Shown here: positions 13,958 through 25,942 of the stretch, piece after piece
How the letters are laid out: the number at the start of each line of letters is the position of its first letter
Position numbering within the stretch: position 1 is the stretch's first letter
From: a virus
Virus record (IMG/VR): IMGVR_UViG_3300037166_000040
Location: 1-26,106 of that record
Reading direction: 5' to 3' (one strand)
Length of the DNA: 26,106 nt
Made by a program: the position numbers and the translations under genes
The notes under the pieces: model-generated
Told to the model about the DNA's origin: nothing
The model's database searches: none
Seen by the model: only the letters and a program-made list of their open reading frames with translations

Positions 13958-15637
13958 TTAGAAAAACGTGATTCTCGTATATTTACGCTCAGAAGATGGT
14001 GCTTGAATCGCCTGAGACAAAGCAATAATTGTTGCGACGGGACCGTCGATCTTATCCTCTGGCTTATTCTTGCGAGGGAAGATGTTGTCGTTAAAATCCG
14101 TCTTAATCTCGACGTTCCCCATTTGCCAGTTCATGCATGGGTTATTGTCGTGGTGCATCGTTCCATTCAGCACACCGGATTCGAGCCGTTTCATCGGTTC
14201 TGACAGGAATTTAACTTGCTGAGGAACCTTGACACGCATTATCCCTGTGCGTGATTCAAATTGCTGCGTTATGTCGGTTGCGCCCCACGGGTCATAACAT
14301 AGAGCTTTGACATTGTATTTATCAACGTCCTTTATCAAGTCTGCGGAGATTCTTGCAAAGTCAATCTCCGCTCCCTCGGTTGAAACTAAATAACCGTCAT
14401 GCACCCACTTTTGATAGTGCTGGCACGTTGGGTCGGTTGTCCTTGCTTCCGGCAGATAGAATCGCGGCACGATGTAATAGTGATACTTGCCGTCCTGCAA
14501 CCTGCGAAACACCTTGACCACTGCCGCTATATCTACTGCCGAGGCCAAGTCAAGCCCTATAAAACACTCGCAACTCTTGAGGAACTCTTCGGTGAGGAAT
14601 GATTCGTCTACACCTGAAGTTTGCCAATTAGTCGCATTCATCCATGCCGTTGTCGCGGTCATCCACTGGTTCAAATGCTTACAGCGGAAGATGTTTTGCT
14701 TCGCCGAGTTGCGGACAGCCTCGGCTTGGTCTAAAAGGAGTGCCTCTTCATCATTGCTAATACCCAGATTTGGGTTTGCCATAACGAGTGCATCACGAGT
14801 TGTCCAGTCTGTCTCCGGGTCTACCGTGTAAATAATCCCAAACAGCCGGTCGTTTTCTACCGTGCCGTCTAATACTCTCTCAACTTCCCTTTGCTTCTCA
14901 AGGCAAGGGCTTTGAGTTGAAACACCAGCCGTTGAAATCTCTAACAGGAGCGAGTTCTTGCGCTTATTGGCACCCGTCTTGAAGCAGTCGTACTGTACCG
15001 CATCTAATGCCTGATGCCACTCATCCAGCACCGCAAGATAGATACTCGCTCCGTCCTTTGGTTCTCGGATGACTGACTTAAAACGGGAACGAGTAGAACT
15101 CTGGTAGATGCTTTTTGCTGCTACTGTAATGCCATATCGCTTTGTGAGCTCCGGTACTTGCTCCAGCATCGCTTTCGCTGGCCTGAATACCTCATGGGCT
15201 TGCTCCTCTGACGCAGCACCGCAGTATGACTCCGCCCCAGGCTCACCATCGAAGAAAGTCATCCATATTGCAATGATGGCTGCTAATGGACTCTTACCGT
15301 TTCCACGCGGAACCAAGATGAAGGCTTCCCTGTACTTGCGTGTTCCATTCTCATCAATAAATCCGAAGATATTGCAGAGAATGAATACCTGCCAATCCTC
15401 TAACCTGAAACGCTGCCCTTGTAGCCGACCTTTTTCATGCCGCATTAACTCGGCAACCCTGCAAACCTCATTCGCAATATCCGGTACAAAATACCAACGA
15501 CTCTCTGCGTTGCGGAGGTCAGTTAAGAAGCGTTTCGCTGCTAACTTTACCCATTTGCAAGATATAATCTTGCCGGTCGTTACCCGTTGGGCGTACAAAA
15601 TTGCGCGTTCCGCGTAACTCAAAATCTCTATTGTCAC
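13958..15637 (-). CDS. terL: Terminase large subunit
   Basis: The 559-residue packaging motor has an N-terminal ATPase and a C-terminal RNase H-fold nuclease. Walker A is VPRGNGKS (109-116) and Walker B with catalytic Glu is LAVLDE (201-206). The nuclease acidic residues are in GLDLAS (D363), CYDPWGA (D449) and IDGPVA (D531). This is the HK97/lambdoid-related Terminase_1 type that pairs with P27 small subunits and often makes cos ends. The start is a GTG at 15637, directly after the TAA of the small subunit gene (TAAGTG). All key residues are intact. Confidence 0.97.
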   Translation of the reverse strand: MTIEILSYAERAILYAQRVTTGKIISCKWVKLAAKRFLTDLRNAESRWYFVPDIANEVCRVAELMRHEKGRLQGQRFRLEDWQVFILCNIFGFIDENGTRKYREAFILVPRGNGKSPLAAIIAIWMTFFDGEPGAESYCGAASEEQAHEVFRPAKAMLEQVPELTKRYGITVAAKSIYQSSTRSRFKSVIREPKDGASIYLAVLDEWHQALDAVQYDCFKTGANKRKNSLLLEISTAGVSTQSPCLEKQREVERVLDGTVENDRLFGIIYTVDPETDWTTRDALVMANPNLGISNDEEALLLDQAEAVRNSAKQNIFRCKHLNQWMTATTAWMNATNWQTSGVDESFLTEEFLKSCECFIGLDLASAVDIAAVVKVFRRLQDGKYHYYIVPRFYLPEARTTDPTCQHYQKWVHDGYLVSTEGAEIDFARISADLIKDVDKYNVKALCYDPWGATDITQQFESRTGIMRVKVPQQVKFLSEPMKRLESGVLNGTMHHDNNPCMNWQMGNVEIKTDFNDNIFPRKNKPEDKIDGPVATIIALSQAIQAPSSERKYTRITFF

Positions 15638-16165
15638 TTACGCATCCCTATTAAATAATTCTGTGACTGGTGGTCTGCTAAAGTTTCCACGTGGTATTGA
15701 TATTGCAAACTCGTCATCTACACTCGGTTTTACCGACTCTGCTGACAATCTTGTACGGGATGATGGGCTGAGTCCTAGCTCCGCTCCAAACTTTCTCATC
15801 TGATCAGCCGCAGTGTTGATAATCCCTATCAACGGATTTTGCATCGGATAACCCGTTTTGGTTCCGACAACCAGAACAGACTTCCCCTTGGTGCGTCTTA
15901 ACTCGTTTAGTTCGGCTGTAGCCTCTGACCATCGGGAATACGCATCGCAATAGCTGGCAAGCATTGCCCGGTCTACGGAAGTCAGCAGTCCAACTGCTAT
16001 TAGCTCCTTGCTTATGCGCGTCCACTCCCGCTTTGCAGTAGCATCGAGACAGGACGGGCAGGTGGGGATACCAGATGGCTTTGGTTCGTTCTGATTCAAA
16101 GGACGATGACCGGGATTTCCAGCAAGCTCTTTACTTATCGTGGGTTTAGGCTTTCTACCTGGCAT
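15638..16165 (-). CDS. terS: Terminase small subunit, P27 family
   Basis: The 175-residue protein opens MPGRKPKPTISKELAGNPGHRPLN, the characteristic P27-family start. The helical core includes AKREWTRISKELIAVGLLTSVDRAMLASYCDAYSRW-like sequence, and GLSPSSRTRL lies near residue 135. It recognises the packaging site and loads TerL. Its ATG overlaps the stop of the formyltransferase gene at 16165 (one base), so the accessory cassette upstream is on the same transcript as packaging. Confidence 0.94.
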   Translation of the reverse strand: MPGRKPKPTISKELAGNPGHRPLNQNEPKPSGIPTCPSCLDATAKREWTRISKELIAVGLLTSVDRAMLASYCDAYSRWSEATAELNELRRTKGKSVLVVGTKTGYPMQNPLIGIINTAADQMRKFGAELGLSPSSRTRLSAESVKPSVDDEFAISIPRGNFSRPPVTELFNRDA

Positions 16166-16941
16166 TATTTACCTTGTCCGTCTCCGTCGAGACTTTCCAG
16201 CTCGTATCGAAGGCTGGTAGTACCAAGCTGTGGCAGCTCTGGGCGGAAGAGTGGTGGCCTGTCGAACGACGGCTCCCAGGTGGCGCAGCTCTCGTCCTGC
16301 GGAACCCTGACCGCGAGGCCGTGGTCCAGGTCGGCCAGCGTCTTCAGGAGCAAGCGGACTCCAAGCGGGGCAAGCTGCTCACGCCAGAGGCTCTCGGCTG
16401 TTTCGCCGGGTCGCACAAAGACGTGCTGCTGGGCCGCAATTGGCCCCGCGTCGATCTCGTTCGTTAGCCAGTACACCGAGCCGCCTGTGACTTTGTCGCC
16501 GTCGTGGATCGCCCACCGCACCGCGTCACGGCCCTTGTGAAGAGGAAGCAGAGAGGGGTGAAAGCCGATAGCCCCAAAGGTTGCCCGATCCCGCGTCTTG
16601 CGACCTATAAAATCATGAGAGTGGGCAGCGACGATGATGTCTGTGCCGGAGGGCAGCGAGTCGGCGCGAACCTCTGGCTGCCAGGGAATTCGGAGGCGTT
16701 CAGCGGTTGCCCTTACCCTGTCGAAGACCTGTACTCCGTCGGTTGAAAGATGATCTGCGAACGGCGGACTGGACACACCGAGGACACAGTACCTTTTAGC
16801 GATGGCTTCGAGTACAGACGCTCCGAATTGTTTCTGACGCAGAGGAAGACGTTCATCAAGTCTGTTTTTGCTCCGGCAATCCGTAGTAGCGGAAGCCTTG
16901 AATGGCTCGGAAATGACCGCCGAATCCTGTTCCAGGCGCAA
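16165..16941 (-). CDS. Formyltransferase-fold protein with apparent 5' frameshift
   Basis: The core of this frame is a methionyl-tRNA/GAR formyltransferase catalytic domain: GFHPSLLPLHKGRDAVRW, GGSVYWLTNEIDAGPIA and VRPGETAESLWREQL. His128 and Asp164 are 36 apart, as in E. coli Fmt (H108, D144). However, Gly126 replaces the catalytic Asn (two before the His). The frame opens upstream to an ATG at 16941, overlapping the previous gene by 86 bp. A better start is the ATG at 16854-16856, overlapping that gene's stop as TGATG. From it the other frame reads MNVFLC and then should continue as QKQFGASVLEAIAKR, but one base is missing near 16837-16839. The substrate is unknown; it may supply a formyl group in DNA modification. 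Confidence 0.8.
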   Translation of the reverse strand: MRLEQDSAVISEPFKASATTDCRSKNRLDERLPLRQKQFGASVLEAIAKRYCVLGVSSPPFADHLSTDGVQVFDRVRATAERLRIPWQPEVRADSLPSGTDIIVAAHSHDFIGRKTRDRATFGAIGFHPSLLPLHKGRDAVRWAIHDGDKVTGGSVYWLTNEIDAGPIAAQQHVFVRPGETAESLWREQLAPLGVRLLLKTLADLDHGLAVRVPQDESCATWEPSFDRPPLFRPELPQLGTTSLRYELESLDGDGQGK

Positions 16942-18010
16942 TCAGATCGCTGCCTAGCTTAGTGGCTGAGTTCGTGATTGAGCGGGTTGATCTAATCTTG
17001 TTGCCGCCATAAAGTACTGCTGATACCTGTACCCACTTTGGATCGCGGCGAAGACTCGCACATAGACCTGGGTGGGAAGTATGAAAAATGGTGGTCAGCG
17101 GCTTGTTCCATTTGTTTTCGCCGCGACGCCACATCTCGCAGACGGCGTTCAGGAATCGAATGCCGACTCCTGCGCCCTGCCACTCAGGCATGACCACTAG
17201 CCTAGTTCCACGCGCTTCAAACTGACCGCGAGGAAGTGACTTGGTCGCCATCGCCAAGTGACAGACTGGCTCTCCGTCAACAGTGCCAACGAAGTATTGG
17301 CCGGCGACCGGAAGCGGGAGTTTCAAATAGTAATGCGGAGCAAAGAGCGGCCAATAACTTGAATCTGTCTGCCAAATCTCAAGCTCGAATTTGGGGCGTC
17401 GCCAAAGCGACCCCCTTGAGAACTTGCCAGTTCCCGTGTCATAAACCCAATCGGGTTCAATCCAATCGATTACATCGTAGTGGCAGGACAGCAACACACA
17501 CTGCCCACTCGTGCGCTTCCAGGCTTTTTGAAAAGCCAACGCGCCGAACTTGGCAATTTGCCTGTCGATTACTGAGGTGAATTCATCGACAACGATTTGC
17601 TCCGGCTTCTCGCTGATGATTCGCGCAAGGTCGGCGCGGAACCGTTCGCCAGTGGACAGCGCACTGTAAGGGCGCAGCCAGCAAGGAACGGAACCGAGGC
17701 CGACAGCGGCAAGCGCACCGGTCACGGCGTCAAAGTCGCCCTCTGGTGATATGGCATCAACGATTGGTTTGTCGGTGGGCCATCCATCAGGCGAATAGAA
17801 CGCATCCGGCCCGAAGATCATCCGGCCAAGAGACGATTTCCCGGAACCGCTTGAACCGACGATTACGCCGATCTTCCAATTCGAGTCGTCAATATCCAAC
17901 TCGGCGTCGAGGTTGAACTCCGCGCCAGACTCCGCATTGAAGAGAGACTTTACGCGGGCGGCGCGATAGCTGTTGAAATCCTTACAGGAGTTGCGTACTT
18001 CAAGTTTCAT
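16856..18010 (-). CDS. ABC-type ATPase fused to GNAT acyltransferase (COG2401-like)
   Basis: The start is the ATG at 18010, overlapping the upstream stop (TAATG); an ATG at 18031 is in frame but less likely. Of 384 residues, about 1-205 form an ABC ATPase: Walker A GSSGSGKS (52-59), signature LSTGE (118-122), Walker B IVVDE (139-143) and H-loop His177. There are no membrane segments, so it is not a transporter. Residues about 210-384 form a GNAT fold, with acyl-CoA motif MPEWQGAGVG (274-283) and HTSHPGLCASLRRDP near 310. Such fusions are known from phages and archaea. The GNAT fold is shared with Mu Mom, which modifies adenine. With a ParB-like gene before and a formyltransferase after, a DNA-modifying role is plausible but inferred. 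Confidence 0.9.
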   Translation of the reverse strand: MKLEVRNSCKDFNSYRAARVKSLFNAESGAEFNLDAELDIDDSNWKIGVIVGSSGSGKSSLGRMIFGPDAFYSPDGWPTDKPIVDAISPEGDFDAVTGALAAVGLGSVPCWLRPYSALSTGERFRADLARIISEKPEQIVVDEFTSVIDRQIAKFGALAFQKAWKRTSGQCVLLSCHYDVIDWIEPDWVYDTGTGKFSRGSLWRRPKFELEIWQTDSSYWPLFAPHYYLKLPLPVAGQYFVGTVDGEPVCHLAMATKSLPRGQFEARGTRLVVMPEWQGAGVGIRFLNAVCEMWRRGENKWNKPLTTIFHTSHPGLCASLRRDPKWVQVSAVLYGGNKIRSTRSITNSATKLGSDLIAPGTGFGGHFRAIQGFRYYGLPEQKQT

Positions 18011-18570
18011 TAAGTCACCACCACGCGGCAAAAAAGGCCCAGGCCAGTCAACTGCTCGTAAACTTTCTGCTGGTCGGCCTCATCCTCGCAGATACAAATC
18101 ACGCCGAACTGCTGTTTGTACCGGCCTTCGAGTGTTTCGGGGCCGGGTGCTCCAGTCTGCAACGCGTCGGGCTCGGTGATCTCGGTAAGTTCCTCGGCGG
18201 AAAAGAACGGTTCCAGATTGAGGTCAACCGAAAGCTCCTTGAGAACGTCCGCGTCCCACTCAAGTCCAAGTTCTGACGCGCGGTTGTCCGCAATCGCCAA
18301 GCCACGCGCTTTAGGGTCGTCCATGCTGAGGTCAGTACGCTGCACAGCTACCAACTTACTGCCGTCTGTCTGAACGACAATCACTTCCTCGATTCCAGCG
18401 TCAGCAGCCTGCGCGGCAGTCTTGTTTCCGGCAATAAGGTTCCCATCCCTGTCGATCAGAACGCTACGACCGGCACCATACTGTTCGAGAGACTTGGCTA
18501 CAGCGCCACGGCCTCGCGGTGTGCCCTTATTGGCGTTGCGACTATCTTGTTTAAGGTCTGATAGCTTCAA
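18010..18570 (-). CDS. ParB/sulfiredoxin-fold nuclease-like protein
   Basis: The conserved part begins KLSDLKQDSRNANKGTPRG, so I choose the TTG at 18570. It has a GGGGG stretch about 12 nt upstream and avoids overlap with the HNH gene; the frame is open to an ATG at 18768. The core motif LIAGNKTAAQAADAGIEEV (about residues 45-63) is the ParB N-terminal signature in the GNKT variant common in phages. The DDPKARGLAIADNRASELG segment is also typical. The C-terminus (FGVICICEDEADQQKVYEQL) is a small conserved domain of phage ParB-like proteins. There is no partitioning partner (ParA), so a chromosome segregation role is unlikely. DNA binding, nicking or NTP binding within the cassette is possible. 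Confidence 0.85.
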   Translation of the reverse strand: MKLSDLKQDSRNANKGTPRGRGAVAKSLEQYGAGRSVLIDRDGNLIAGNKTAAQAADAGIEEVIVVQTDGSKLVAVQRTDLSMDDPKARGLAIADNRASELGLEWDADVLKELSVDLNLEPFFSAEELTEITEPDALQTGAPGPETLEGRYKQQFGVICICEDEADQQKVYEQLTGLGLFCRVVVT

Positions 18571-18673: not shown

Positions 18674-19021
18674 CTAAGAATGAGACTTCCTAACCCTCTC
18701 GGAGTCTGTCTTCGTCTTGTGACAGCCATTGCAAAGAGGTTGCAAGTTCTCTTCGTTGTCTTTGCCACATTGTGACTTAGGTACTATGTGGTCTGTACAG
18801 GTTGCTGCTCTTATCTTGCACATACGGCAAACAGGTTCATCGTGCCGTATCCTGCGGCTCAGTACATCCCAAGCATGGCCGTAGGGCTTACCAGAGTACC
18901 CACCTTTAATAGAGTCTTTCTTCTCCTGCTCGTGTATCGCTTTATGATCTGGGCAGTAACATTCCCGTGATAGGTTGCGGCAGCCGCTGTATGAGCATGG
19001 TCTCAGGGGTAAAAGTGGCAT
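18674..19021 (-). CDS. HNH endonuclease, packaging-associated type
   Basis: The 115-residue protein has an N-terminal Cys cluster (PCSYSGC, CYCPDH) and a C-terminal HNH fold: CRMCKIRAATCTDHIVPKS, NLQPLCNGCHKTKT. All metal and catalytic residues are present. Small HNH proteins next to terminase genes are needed for DNA packaging in HK97-like phages, where they work with TerL at the cos site. Here the gene is first in the packaging transcript but is separated from terS by three accessory genes. It lies after a 175-bp gap with strong hairpins. Confidence 0.9.
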   Translation of the reverse strand: MPLLPLRPCSYSGCRNLSRECYCPDHKAIHEQEKKDSIKGGYSGKPYGHAWDVLSRRIRHDEPVCRMCKIRAATCTDHIVPKSQCGKDNEENLQPLCNGCHKTKTDSERVRKSHS

Positions 19022-23624: not shown

Positions 23625-24692
23625 ATGAAAACGGTTATGCAGCAACGAGAGAAGATTTTCCGGCAGATGATTCTTCCGCCATGGGCCTTGAAGATTGATG
23701 TCAGGCAGAACGACACCGATTTGCTTATTTCCGGGGAGAAATGGTGGTTCCATCCCCTCAATCGCGACCCTTACGGTGATTGGGTTATTGACATTCTTCG
23801 TGGCTTTGACGAAGATCGGGGACTCCCCCCGGCTCTGCCTAGTGAGGCACCCCACTTTCTCTTCGCAAGTGCTAACACCCTCCCGAAGCAAGTGGAGTTC
23901 GTTAAGAGGTTCGGCCCAGTGCTCGCGAAGTTTCAATATGGGAACCACGACACCGTAAATGCTCATCAGAACCTGAATATCCTGAGCTTCGAGCAGCAGT
24001 TGTTTTCCCAGATCTTTCATTTAACCCGACTTATTAACGAATTGAATCGCTTTTGCTGGGAAGCATTTCGAGAAGAAAAAGTATATGGAAAGCGCTTTGT
24101 AATAACGGAACCCGACAATTATGACTTAGCCTCAATAGCCAAAGATATAGAACAGAGAGCAAAGGACTTCGACTCTTTCCTGACTCGAAGGAAGGTTCTC
24201 ACATCGGATGCGCGAGAAACAATTAAGAAGGTACGATCACTGGTGTCCGACATCGACGAACTCATGAATCCATGTCCTGAGGATCACCTGGAGGAATTTG
24301 ACGATCCCTGTTCATGGCGGAGTATATCCAGTCCCATACGTTCAAGAGACCAGATGTCTAAGGTGTCTAGCCTCGACGTGATTGACTATGCAAATGAGTT
24401 ATTGTGTGATGTTTTCAATTTCTTTCCAGTGAACCTCCGCTATGCAGCCGGAATGGCACATGACATGCCTGAAATGGAGCCTTCAGGAATCAGGCCAGCC
24501 TTGTATTACATGCTGCGCTTGGATTACCTTTACCAACGCCAGATAAAACTCTGTGCCCGCCCCAACTGTGGAGGGTACTTTGTTCCAGATCGCAAGGACA
24601 GAATCTATTGCAGCGGTTCTTGCTCTAATAGTGCCAAGCAGCGACGACACACGGCGAGGAGCAAACTTGCGGCTCAGAGGAAGTCCAGCTAG
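23625..24692 (+). CDS. CGNR-like zinc finger protein of unknown role
   Basis: The protein has 355 residues and the window's only rightward gene. The first 300 residues are helical and unrecognised. The C-terminus has four Cys, C310, C315, C329 and C333 (CARPNCGGYFVPDRKDRIYCSGSC), followed by a basic KQRRHTARSK tail. This is a CGNR-type zinc ribbon, usually found in putative transcription regulators. Orientation, and location between integrase and early genes, suit a lysogeny regulator or a lysogen-expressed cargo gene. The ribosome site is weak. The product could also be a host gene captured near the attachment end. Confidence 0.75.
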   Translation: MKTVMQQREKIFRQMILPPWALKIDVRQNDTDLLISGEKWWFHPLNRDPYGDWVIDILRGFDEDRGLPPALPSEAPHFLFASANTLPKQVEFVKRFGPVLAKFQYGNHDTVNAHQNLNILSFEQQLFSQIFHLTRLINELNRFCWEAFREEKVYGKRFVITEPDNYDLASIAKDIEQRAKDFDSFLTRRKVLTSDARETIKKVRSLVSDIDELMNPCPEDHLEEFDDPCSWRSISSPIRSRDQMSKVSSLDVIDYANELLCDVFNFFPVNLRYAAGMAHDMPEMEPSGIRPALYYMLRLDYLYQRQIKLCARPNCGGYFVPDRKDRIYCSGSCSNSAKQRRHTARSKLAAQRKSS

Positions 24693-24701
24693 CAAAGGCT
24701 G

Positions 24702-24719
24702 GCGGCGAAAAAATGCCGC
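24702..24719. terminator. Weak hairpin between convergent genes
   Basis: GCGGC, an A-rich 8-nt loop and GCCGC lie between the stop of the rightward gene and the integrase stop, overlapping the latter by one base. It may act on both transcripts, but it is short and lacks a T-run. Confidence 0.3.
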
Positions 24720-25942
24720 TACCAAACGACGGCGTTTATCTTTGCTTGCAGTTCTGGCCCGGAAGCGGGCCGCAAGTAGCGCAGGGTACTCTCCAGATCG
24801 CTATGCCCCGCCAGACGCTGTACCGTGCGAACGTCAACGCCACTCCTCAACAGAGCGGTTAGATAGGTCCGCCGGAACCGATGCAGGGTGAATTCCATGC
24901 AACCTCCACGGTATCCCGGCTCCTTCAATCTGGCGCATCCGTCGCAACGCCCACATGAGAGTCCGGCCTTCTCGGCCAGCCGCTTTACGTCCTCCAGCAA
25001 TACACTGCTTGGCGTATCGCGCCGTGTGCCAAGAACCAGCTTTGTGCCTGGTCGGCTCTCCCGCCAAGCCGTCAGTTCGGCCATGAGGTCATCGGGCAGG
25101 GGAAGTTCACGCTGCTCGCTATCCTTCACCTTGAAGCCCCACTCCGGCTTCCCACGCACCAGGAGTGTGTTATTCGTGAAGTTGATGTCTCGGAATTCCA
25201 AGTGCCGCAGCTCTTTGTCTCGAAGTCCGGCCTTCAACGCCAGCAAGATGCACATCTTCGTATGGGGGTCCGCCGCCTCAAGTAAAGCGCGATACTGCTC
25301 CGGCTCATAGATCGTCGGCAGAGCCTCTTCATACTTGGGTTTGGGCGGGATGTTCGCTTTGTCAATCCCGGCGAAACGCAGCCAGGATACAATCCGGGCA
25401 TGTTTATTTGACAGGGTGCGGGGGACACACCCACGCTTCCGAAGCGCGGAGTGAAACTTGTAAAAGTCTTCTTTTTTGATCTCGTCGACGTATGTCTTCT
25501 TCGTGAGAACGAGGAACTCAGCGGTCGCCGAGCGGGCCATCGACGCAGCAGCCATCGCTCCGCGCCCCTCGGCGTCCTGGATGTAGGCAGCAGCCGTGGC
25601 CTTGAGCGTTTTACGCTCCTCTCCGACCACGATCTGAAGCCCAGCGTCCTCGGCAACCACCTTTGCCGTGCTGGTTTTTTCCTGTCGGGCACGCTGGGCG
25701 TCGGCGTCCGCCGCGTTCTTCCCAGCGGGGGTATACACCACCCGCCTGTCTTCGTAGTGCCGCAGCTCGTAGGCTCCGTCCGTCACCGGAACGGCCTTGC
25801 CCCGTACCAGCGCGTGTCCGGGCTTGACCCGCCCGTTCGCGCCCCTTGCAACCGGGCTGCGCTGCCACTTGCCGTCAGCGGCCCGGTGCCTTACCATCAG
25901 CGTTACGGTCCTGTTTTCCATGCCCCAATCGTACTCCTGCAT
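24719..25942 (-). CDS. int: Tyrosine-type integrase with Cys4 insertion
   Basis: The 407-residue site-specific recombinase integrates and excises the prophage. The catalytic set is intact: Arg241 (AGLRDKEL), His354 and Arg357 (HRFR), His380 (AGHSD) and nucleophile Tyr389 (TLRYLRPA). An N-terminal arm-type region and a SAM-like core-binding domain (about 110-200) precede it. Unusually, four Cys (330, 333, 336, 348: CGRCDGCARL...GGC) sit just before the HxxR box and could bind zinc. The start could be the ATG at 25942 or at 25921. The gene is leftward at the right end; no neighbouring tRNA is seen. Confidence 0.97.
   Translation of the reverse strand: MQEYDWGMENRTVTLMVRHRAADGKWQRSPVARGANGRVKPGHALVRGKAVPVTDGAYELRHYEDRRVVYTPAGKNAADADAQRARQEKTSTAKVVAEDAGLQIVVGEERKTLKATAAAYIQDAEGRGAMAAASMARSATAEFLVLTKKTYVDEIKKEDFYKFHSALRKRGCVPRTLSNKHARIVSWLRFAGIDKANIPPKPKYEEALPTIYEPEQYRALLEAADPHTKMCILLALKAGLRDKELRHLEFRDINFTNNTLLVRGKPEWGFKVKDSEQRELPLPDDLMAELTAWRESRPGTKLVLGTRRDTPSSVLLEDVKRLAEKAGLSCGRCDGCARLKEPGYRGGCMEFTLHRFRRTYLTALLRSGVDVRTVQRLAGHSDLESTLRYLRPASGPELQAKINAVVW

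Follow-up and report, generated by a model that had tools for sequence, protein, structure and literature searches.

The locus examined here raises the question of why genes for a ParB-like protein, a fusion of an ABC ATPase with a GNAT acyltransferase (ABC-GNAT) and a formyltransferase lie together beside the packaging genes of a phage, and of what such a gene set would act upon. The whole stretch of DNA analysed, referred to as the window, comprises 26,106 nucleotides (positions 1 to 26,106 of IMG/VR virus record IMGVR_UViG_3300037166_000040). It carries the trio on the minus strand, with an HNH gene on one side and TerS, TerL and portal genes on the other (Table 1). A preliminary description, made from the letters alone, had placed the three genes between HNH and terminase, and this placement is borne out by profile matches and coordinates. 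Its remark that they are richer in GC also holds, at 56, 55 and 61% for the ParB-like, ABC-GNAT and formyltransferase genes compared with 48.5 and 49% for TerL and TerS, and the TAATG overlap between the ParB-like and ABC-GNAT genes is present at 18008-18012. Elsewhere in the window, a plus-strand gene with a CGNR-type zinc-finger look (23625-24692) adjoins a tyrosine integrase-like gene (24719-25942), both judged by eye, and on account of these two genes the contig seems to be that of a temperate phage.

Table 1. Positions in the window of the three genes, of motifs within them and of the neighbouring genes.
Feature	Positions	Strand	Details
ParB-like gene with C-terminal tail	18010..18570	-	186 aa, TTG start at 18570; phrog_620, E 3.5e-23
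38-aa tail module	18013..18126	-	phrog_28816, E 1.5e-10
ABC-ATPase/GNAT fusion	16856..18010	-	384 aa, ATG at 18010; phrog_11143 over full length, E 7.8e-142
Walker A GSSGSGKS	17834..17857	-	invariant or nearly so in 67 homologues
GNAT acyl-CoA motif QGAGVG	17162..17179	-	Q278, G279, G281 and G283 invariant in 67 homologues
Formyltransferase gene, frameshifted	16165..16856	-	Formyl_trans_N, E 1.2e-18; phrog_9240, E 3.2e-48
TerS (Terminase_4)	15638..16165	-	context; next gene downstream of the cassette; PF05119, E 9.2e-28
TerL	13958..15637	-	context; PF20441, E 9.1e-41; PF03354, E 2.6e-22
HNH endonuclease	18674..19021	-	context; upstream, outside the conserved set; PF01844, E 6.1e-9

Given that the gene set recurs across many unrelated phages, the trio is not a chance association. 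Relatives of ABC-GNAT occur in at least 595 viral and at least 446 bacterial contigs, from which the best 80 of each were kept; the hosts of these best relatives include Acidobacteria, Pseudomonadota, Planctomycetes, Chloroflexi, Firmicutes, Bacteroidota, Verrucomicrobia and others. In a set of 191 loci that contains them, ABC-GNAT is directly preceded in 179 by a protein ending in the tail module, and a formyltransferase lies directly downstream in 127 of 179, or in about 146 when some 19 are added in which a frameshift masks the distance. Rarity of the combination elsewhere would have counted against the preliminary description, and across phages the three families commonly travel together. 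Furthermore, the evolutionary distances of ABC-GNAT and the formyltransferase correlate (r 0.61, a value reached in none of 999 permutations), indicating co-divergence. Searches with tblastn located ABC-GNAT with an adjoining formyltransferase in Gordonia phages, Porphyromonas phages, Pseudomonas phage Komp_PAO1_1 and gut phages, and in the Gordonia phages the ParB, ABC-GNAT and formyltransferase genes are genes 1-3, ahead of the terminase. The trio is real and forms a conserved operon.

The central protein of this operon carries the traits of two superfamilies. Walker A, the signature, Walker B with its Glu and the H-loop are conserved across 67 sequences, as is an invariant QGxGxG in the GNAT half, where the secondary structure of the model also fits; Pfam returned ABC_tran at 3.8e-7 and Acetyltransf_7 at 7e-4, the latter under the Pfam cut-off. 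The AlphaFold model (pLDDT 86) is closest among viral structures to a GNAT of Leptospira phage LE4 (TM 0.78), a homologue that is likewise preceded by a ParB-like gene. Foldseek with the whole model gave ABC proteins only among the PDB matches listed, the ABC domain dominating the search, and this counts somewhat against the explanation preferred below. It had been claimed that the GNAT fold is that of Mom of phage Mu. A profile of the GNAT half aligned with Mom in hhalign at a probability of 57% (E 1e-4 from one comparison), pairing HYY with HY and RLVV with RMWL, and a common HY and Arg lend the claim weak support. Against it, Mom has no acyl-CoA motif at the place where ABC-GNAT keeps QxGxG, the Mom profile (PF25680) found no match in ABC-GNAT in a Pfam scan, and a direct sequence comparison with Mu Mom gave no signal. 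ABC-GNAT is, by its sequence, not a member of the Mom family, and its GNAT half may be a distant cousin of Mom; the absent Pfam match and the weak profile link are a counterpoint to a role in DNA modification. The preliminary description had ATP perhaps handing an activated group to DNA; more likely, by analogy with other DNA-acting ABC proteins, it drives clamping or scanning of DNA.

The operon is found in two genomic settings. About half of the loci encode a ParB-like protein that ends in the tail, commonly with terminase genes next; the other half, in Mu-like phages, have the tail as a free-standing ORF of 40-80 residues. On a FastTree phylogeny the two forms have interchanged at least 10 times. 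The description of the cassette as linked to packaging consequently fits the ParB-fused form, which often adjoins the terminase, and does not extend to the free-tail form. Among the latter, annotations of the Komp and Porphyromonas phages include a transposase, transposition protein or MuB, and Gam. Homologues of MuA, MuB, Gam or Mor were present in all nine viral free-tail records checked, phmmer with annotated MuA and MuB being used because the Mu marker PF02914 matched nowhere and hence was uninformative. In 14 of 19 free-tail cases no more than 1.4 kb separates the cassette from the end of the record; mom likewise lies at the end in Mu.

In Mu, the translation of mom is activated by Com (PMC6483171), whose gene overlaps mom at the same, right end. 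A Com homologue stands just upstream of the cassette in 45 of 82 free-tail loci, compared with none of 64 ParB-fused loci, the type to which the window belongs; in 42 of the 45, com overlaps the tail ORF. All eight cassette-linked Com candidates tested scored above the cut-off for PF10122, as did Mu Com, and Mom was found in none of the 25 cassette-carrying records searched, with a positive result for the Mu control. The cassette resembles Mu com-mom (Mom PF25680, structure 8bv8) in its place at the right end of a transposable phage, its overlap with com and its GNAT-type enzyme; it differs in that Mu com-mom has no ABC ATPase, tail or formyltransferase, Mom lacks QxGxG and no Pfam match connects the two. 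In a sample centred on 66 com genes, for which three cassette genomes served as sampling centres, the next gene encodes a DNA methyltransferase in 29 cases, this cassette in eight (five outside the sampling centres) and Mom in one. These methyltransferases (D12, N6_N4 and C5) share with the cassette their position downstream of com, and are unrelated enzymes that take methyl from SAM. The slot after com is often filled by a DNA-modification enzyme, and the cassette is one of its occupants. Loci L205-L237, mostly from Burkholderiales, have com followed mostly by D12, N6_N4 or C5 DNA methyltransferases.

The remaining com genes, mostly of pseudomonads, precede bacteriocins and other genes, a counterpoint to DNA modification as the role of the cassette. 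In loci L238-L267, from Pseudomonadaceae, Com homologues stand ahead of lectin-like bacteriocins, colicin M and others. Regulation by Com seems to reach beyond DNA modification, and given the bacteriocin genes Com is by itself no proof of it. Nevertheless, the position in the com slot is the main, circumstantial argument for DNA as the substrate, which we infer it to be, and the proposal of DNA modification made in the preliminary description is well supported by a cassette that replaces mom after com in Mu-like phages, with Mom absent from the cassette records searched. This function is likely, and the mark on phage DNA would very probably be armour against restriction enzymes. The same position under com makes it very improbable that the GNAT instead acylates host or virion proteins for host takeover, with ATP hydrolysis as regulator. 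There is a precedent for a protein target, in that some phage GNATs act on RNA polymerase (PMC7824862), while a ParB or tail partner and a late or packaging-region position speak further against it.

The tail itself follows the pattern YxxQYGVIVxCxDExxQxxxYExLxxxGLxxKVVxV, with the C, E and Q invariant, and in an alignment of the ParB-like protein with 46 homologues it is conserved, whereas the N-terminal domain is variable. The window protein matches the ParB PHROG (Table 1), gave no match to ParB in Pfam (PF02195) and has GNKT at the ParB GxxR box, as does its clade, many relatives having GxxR; the model of ParB with tail (pLDDT 76) was too weak for a fold search. Across 198 Pseudomonadaceae genomes the tail profile matched once, in a genome already known to carry the cassette, and the tail therefore looks like a dedicated partner of the cassette. 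Two ParB-like genes stand in tandem ahead of ABC-GNAT in locus L113 (4490-5532), and L130 (3886-7134) holds an apparent decayed partial duplication of tail and ABC. A free tail ORF in Porphyromonas phage008a (L029, 5876-6004) is labelled 'acr candidate', a label made doubtful by the identity of the ORF as the free tail partner of ABC-GNAT. That label in Porphyromonas phages, together with a weak PADLOC similarity to mad3 (E 4.6e-9), might suggest that the cassette is a moron for defence or superinfection exclusion, an ABC-ATPase sensor joined to a GNAT toxin. This is highly improbable: the mad3 similarity is due to the shared ABC domain, no defence-system match covers most of the ABC-GNAT protein, and the cassette has a fixed place in the gene order, with com upstream.

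The formyltransferase belongs to the PF00551 family by profile match, with H128 and D164 conserved in 99% and 98% of sequences; the Asn of N-x-H is not kept, G, I, V, S or A standing there in nearly all 156 members. Among solved structures, the best relative of the formyltransferase is found in ALDH1L1, in its hydrolase domain (4qpd, 1s3i); this domain has the HPSLLP motif and the Asp, and the Asn is replaced there as well, although ALDH1L1, unlike the phage protein, is a cellular folate enzyme. The 10-formyl-THF dehydrogenase hands its formyl to a phosphopantetheine thiol, and by analogy with this step the likeness suggests that the formyltransferase could provide the GNAT with formyl-CoA or a donor like it. 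The protein also resembles Fmt (TIGR00460, E 1e-18), and TmcA, an ATPase plus GNAT that makes N4-acetylcytidine in tRNA, is an analogue of ABC-GNAT; the operon might then modify tRNA or other RNA during infection, in a TmcA-like manner with a partner like the Met-tRNA formyltransferase. This is improbable, since by sequence the closest relative of the formyltransferase is the hydrolase domain of 10-formyl-THF dehydrogenase, not Fmt, the com slot is shared with DNA methyltransferases and Mom, and a ParB domain and adjacent terminase accompany the operon in its ParB-fused form.

In the window the formyltransferase gene lacks one nucleotide near 16838. Close relatives carry one base more at its start, reading ...CTCTGCGGTCAG, where the sequence is ...CTCTGCGTCAG in the window and in four contigs that match it identically over 8-13 kb; given that the same deletion occurs in four further contigs of one virus population, it is not the error of a single assembly. 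The TGATG overlap of the preliminary description is present at 16854-16858, but its ATG (16854-16856) is shifted by one base from the reading frame of the gene body, which ends at 16165, and the 258-aa formyltransferase coupled through it was rejected, being an ORF that starts inside ABC-GNAT as an artefact of the one-base shift relative to the relatives. Intact copies are held by relatives; that of the window is, from its reading frame, probably broken and inactive, and for this reason the function of the cassette in the window's own phage is uncertain. The missing Asn, this frameshift and the absence of the gene from some relatives all weigh against the preferred explanation. No formyltransferase is adjacent in the close ABC-GNAT relatives L041, L057, L070, L128, L130, L145, L152, L171 and L184, its place being taken in L041 and L070 by an ORF of 70-73 aa without known family. 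In phage Jace (L033, 6879-7990) an aspartate decarboxylase and a partial CoA-transferase III follow ParB and ABC-GNAT, with no formyltransferase, and in this single case they could supply a beta-alanyl-CoA donor. As a recurrent partner the decarboxylase was rejected, Jace alone among the phage records seen having it beside ABC-GNAT.

A second frameshift concerns the fusion itself, which is in frame in the window. In 16 relatives (L095, L096, L098-L100, L102-L109, L111, L112 and L117) ABC and GNAT lie in separate frames (-1), and all 16 have 6-11 consecutive A at the junction, within the overlap, at a position that fits -1 slippage. The run is at most 6 in 159 of the 163 in-frame relatives in which it was measurable; L115, L116, L118 and L119 retain an A10 run, yet are in frame. 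On a FastTree tree the split copies need about two changes, and so few point to an inherited recoding, by ribosomal or transcriptional slippage, and not to scattered errors. The junction run is a candidate programmed frameshift that would yield ABC alone in addition to ABC-GNAT. Distant streptococcal and lactococcal relatives are also split, with other candidate sites.

It is suggested that, as a whole, the locus is likely a mobile operon by which phages modify bases of their DNA. ABC-GNAT, together with the tail protein, would bind and scan phage DNA under ATP control, and its GNAT acyltransferase would put an acyl-type group on an amine of a base, with adenine N6 or cytosine N4 the most likely sites, although both the transferred group and the target base are named speculatively. 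The 10-formyl-tetrahydrofolate formyltransferase would either supply the group, for instance as a formyl thioester, or formylate the group already attached. Modification would precede packaging, and the DNA would then resist host restriction. In terminase-type phages the ParB-fold domain would carry the tail and aid DNA targeting, and in Mu-like phages the tail would be free and the operon would stand under Com in place of mom; the window's phage, its formyltransferase probably inactive, would make an unformylated version or none. A more detailed version, offered tentatively, is a folate-fed, ATP-driven hypermodification in which a formylated acyl or aminoacyl base is made by the tail and ABC-GNAT and completed or supplied by the formyltransferase, the cassette being exchangeable with Mom and DNA methyltransferases in the com slot, lying near the terminase elsewhere, and having its ratio of ABC to ABC-GNAT set by frameshifting in one clade. 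That the product is a formylated base is speculative and rather doubtful.

According to a passage in PMC7824862, GNAT-ABC proteins were predicted as DNA acylating enzymes by Iyer, Aravind and colleagues in 2013. The system described there, of Tenacibaculum phage pT24, has the same domain pairing, and pT24 is among the relatives found here; the description in that passage makes no mention of a formyltransferase, ParB, tail, com or frameshifting. ABC-GNAT, the formyltransferase, the tail and ParB match PHROGs 11143, 9240, 28816 and 620, of which 11143 and 28816 carry no function there, and the link among them is made in this analysis. A literature search found nothing on the three-gene set or on an association of formyltransferase, tail or com in phages, which, with Iyer 2013 outside its scope, is no proof of novelty. 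Apparently new are the com-mom slot, the tail and the formyltransferase as partners, and the -1 poly-A frameshift at the ABC/GNAT junction; if the proposal is right, a bare prediction of GNAT-ABC acylation would gain a partner peptide, a folate enzyme and a regulator and become a defined operon. Since enzymes of DNA modification are often found in the slot marked by com, that slot can be mined for others. If the proposal is true, this would be a very common phage DNA modification, with hundreds of relatives across many host phyla, culturable carriers and a clear genetic test, and the chemistry of DNA bases could extend to one-carbon folate chemistry.
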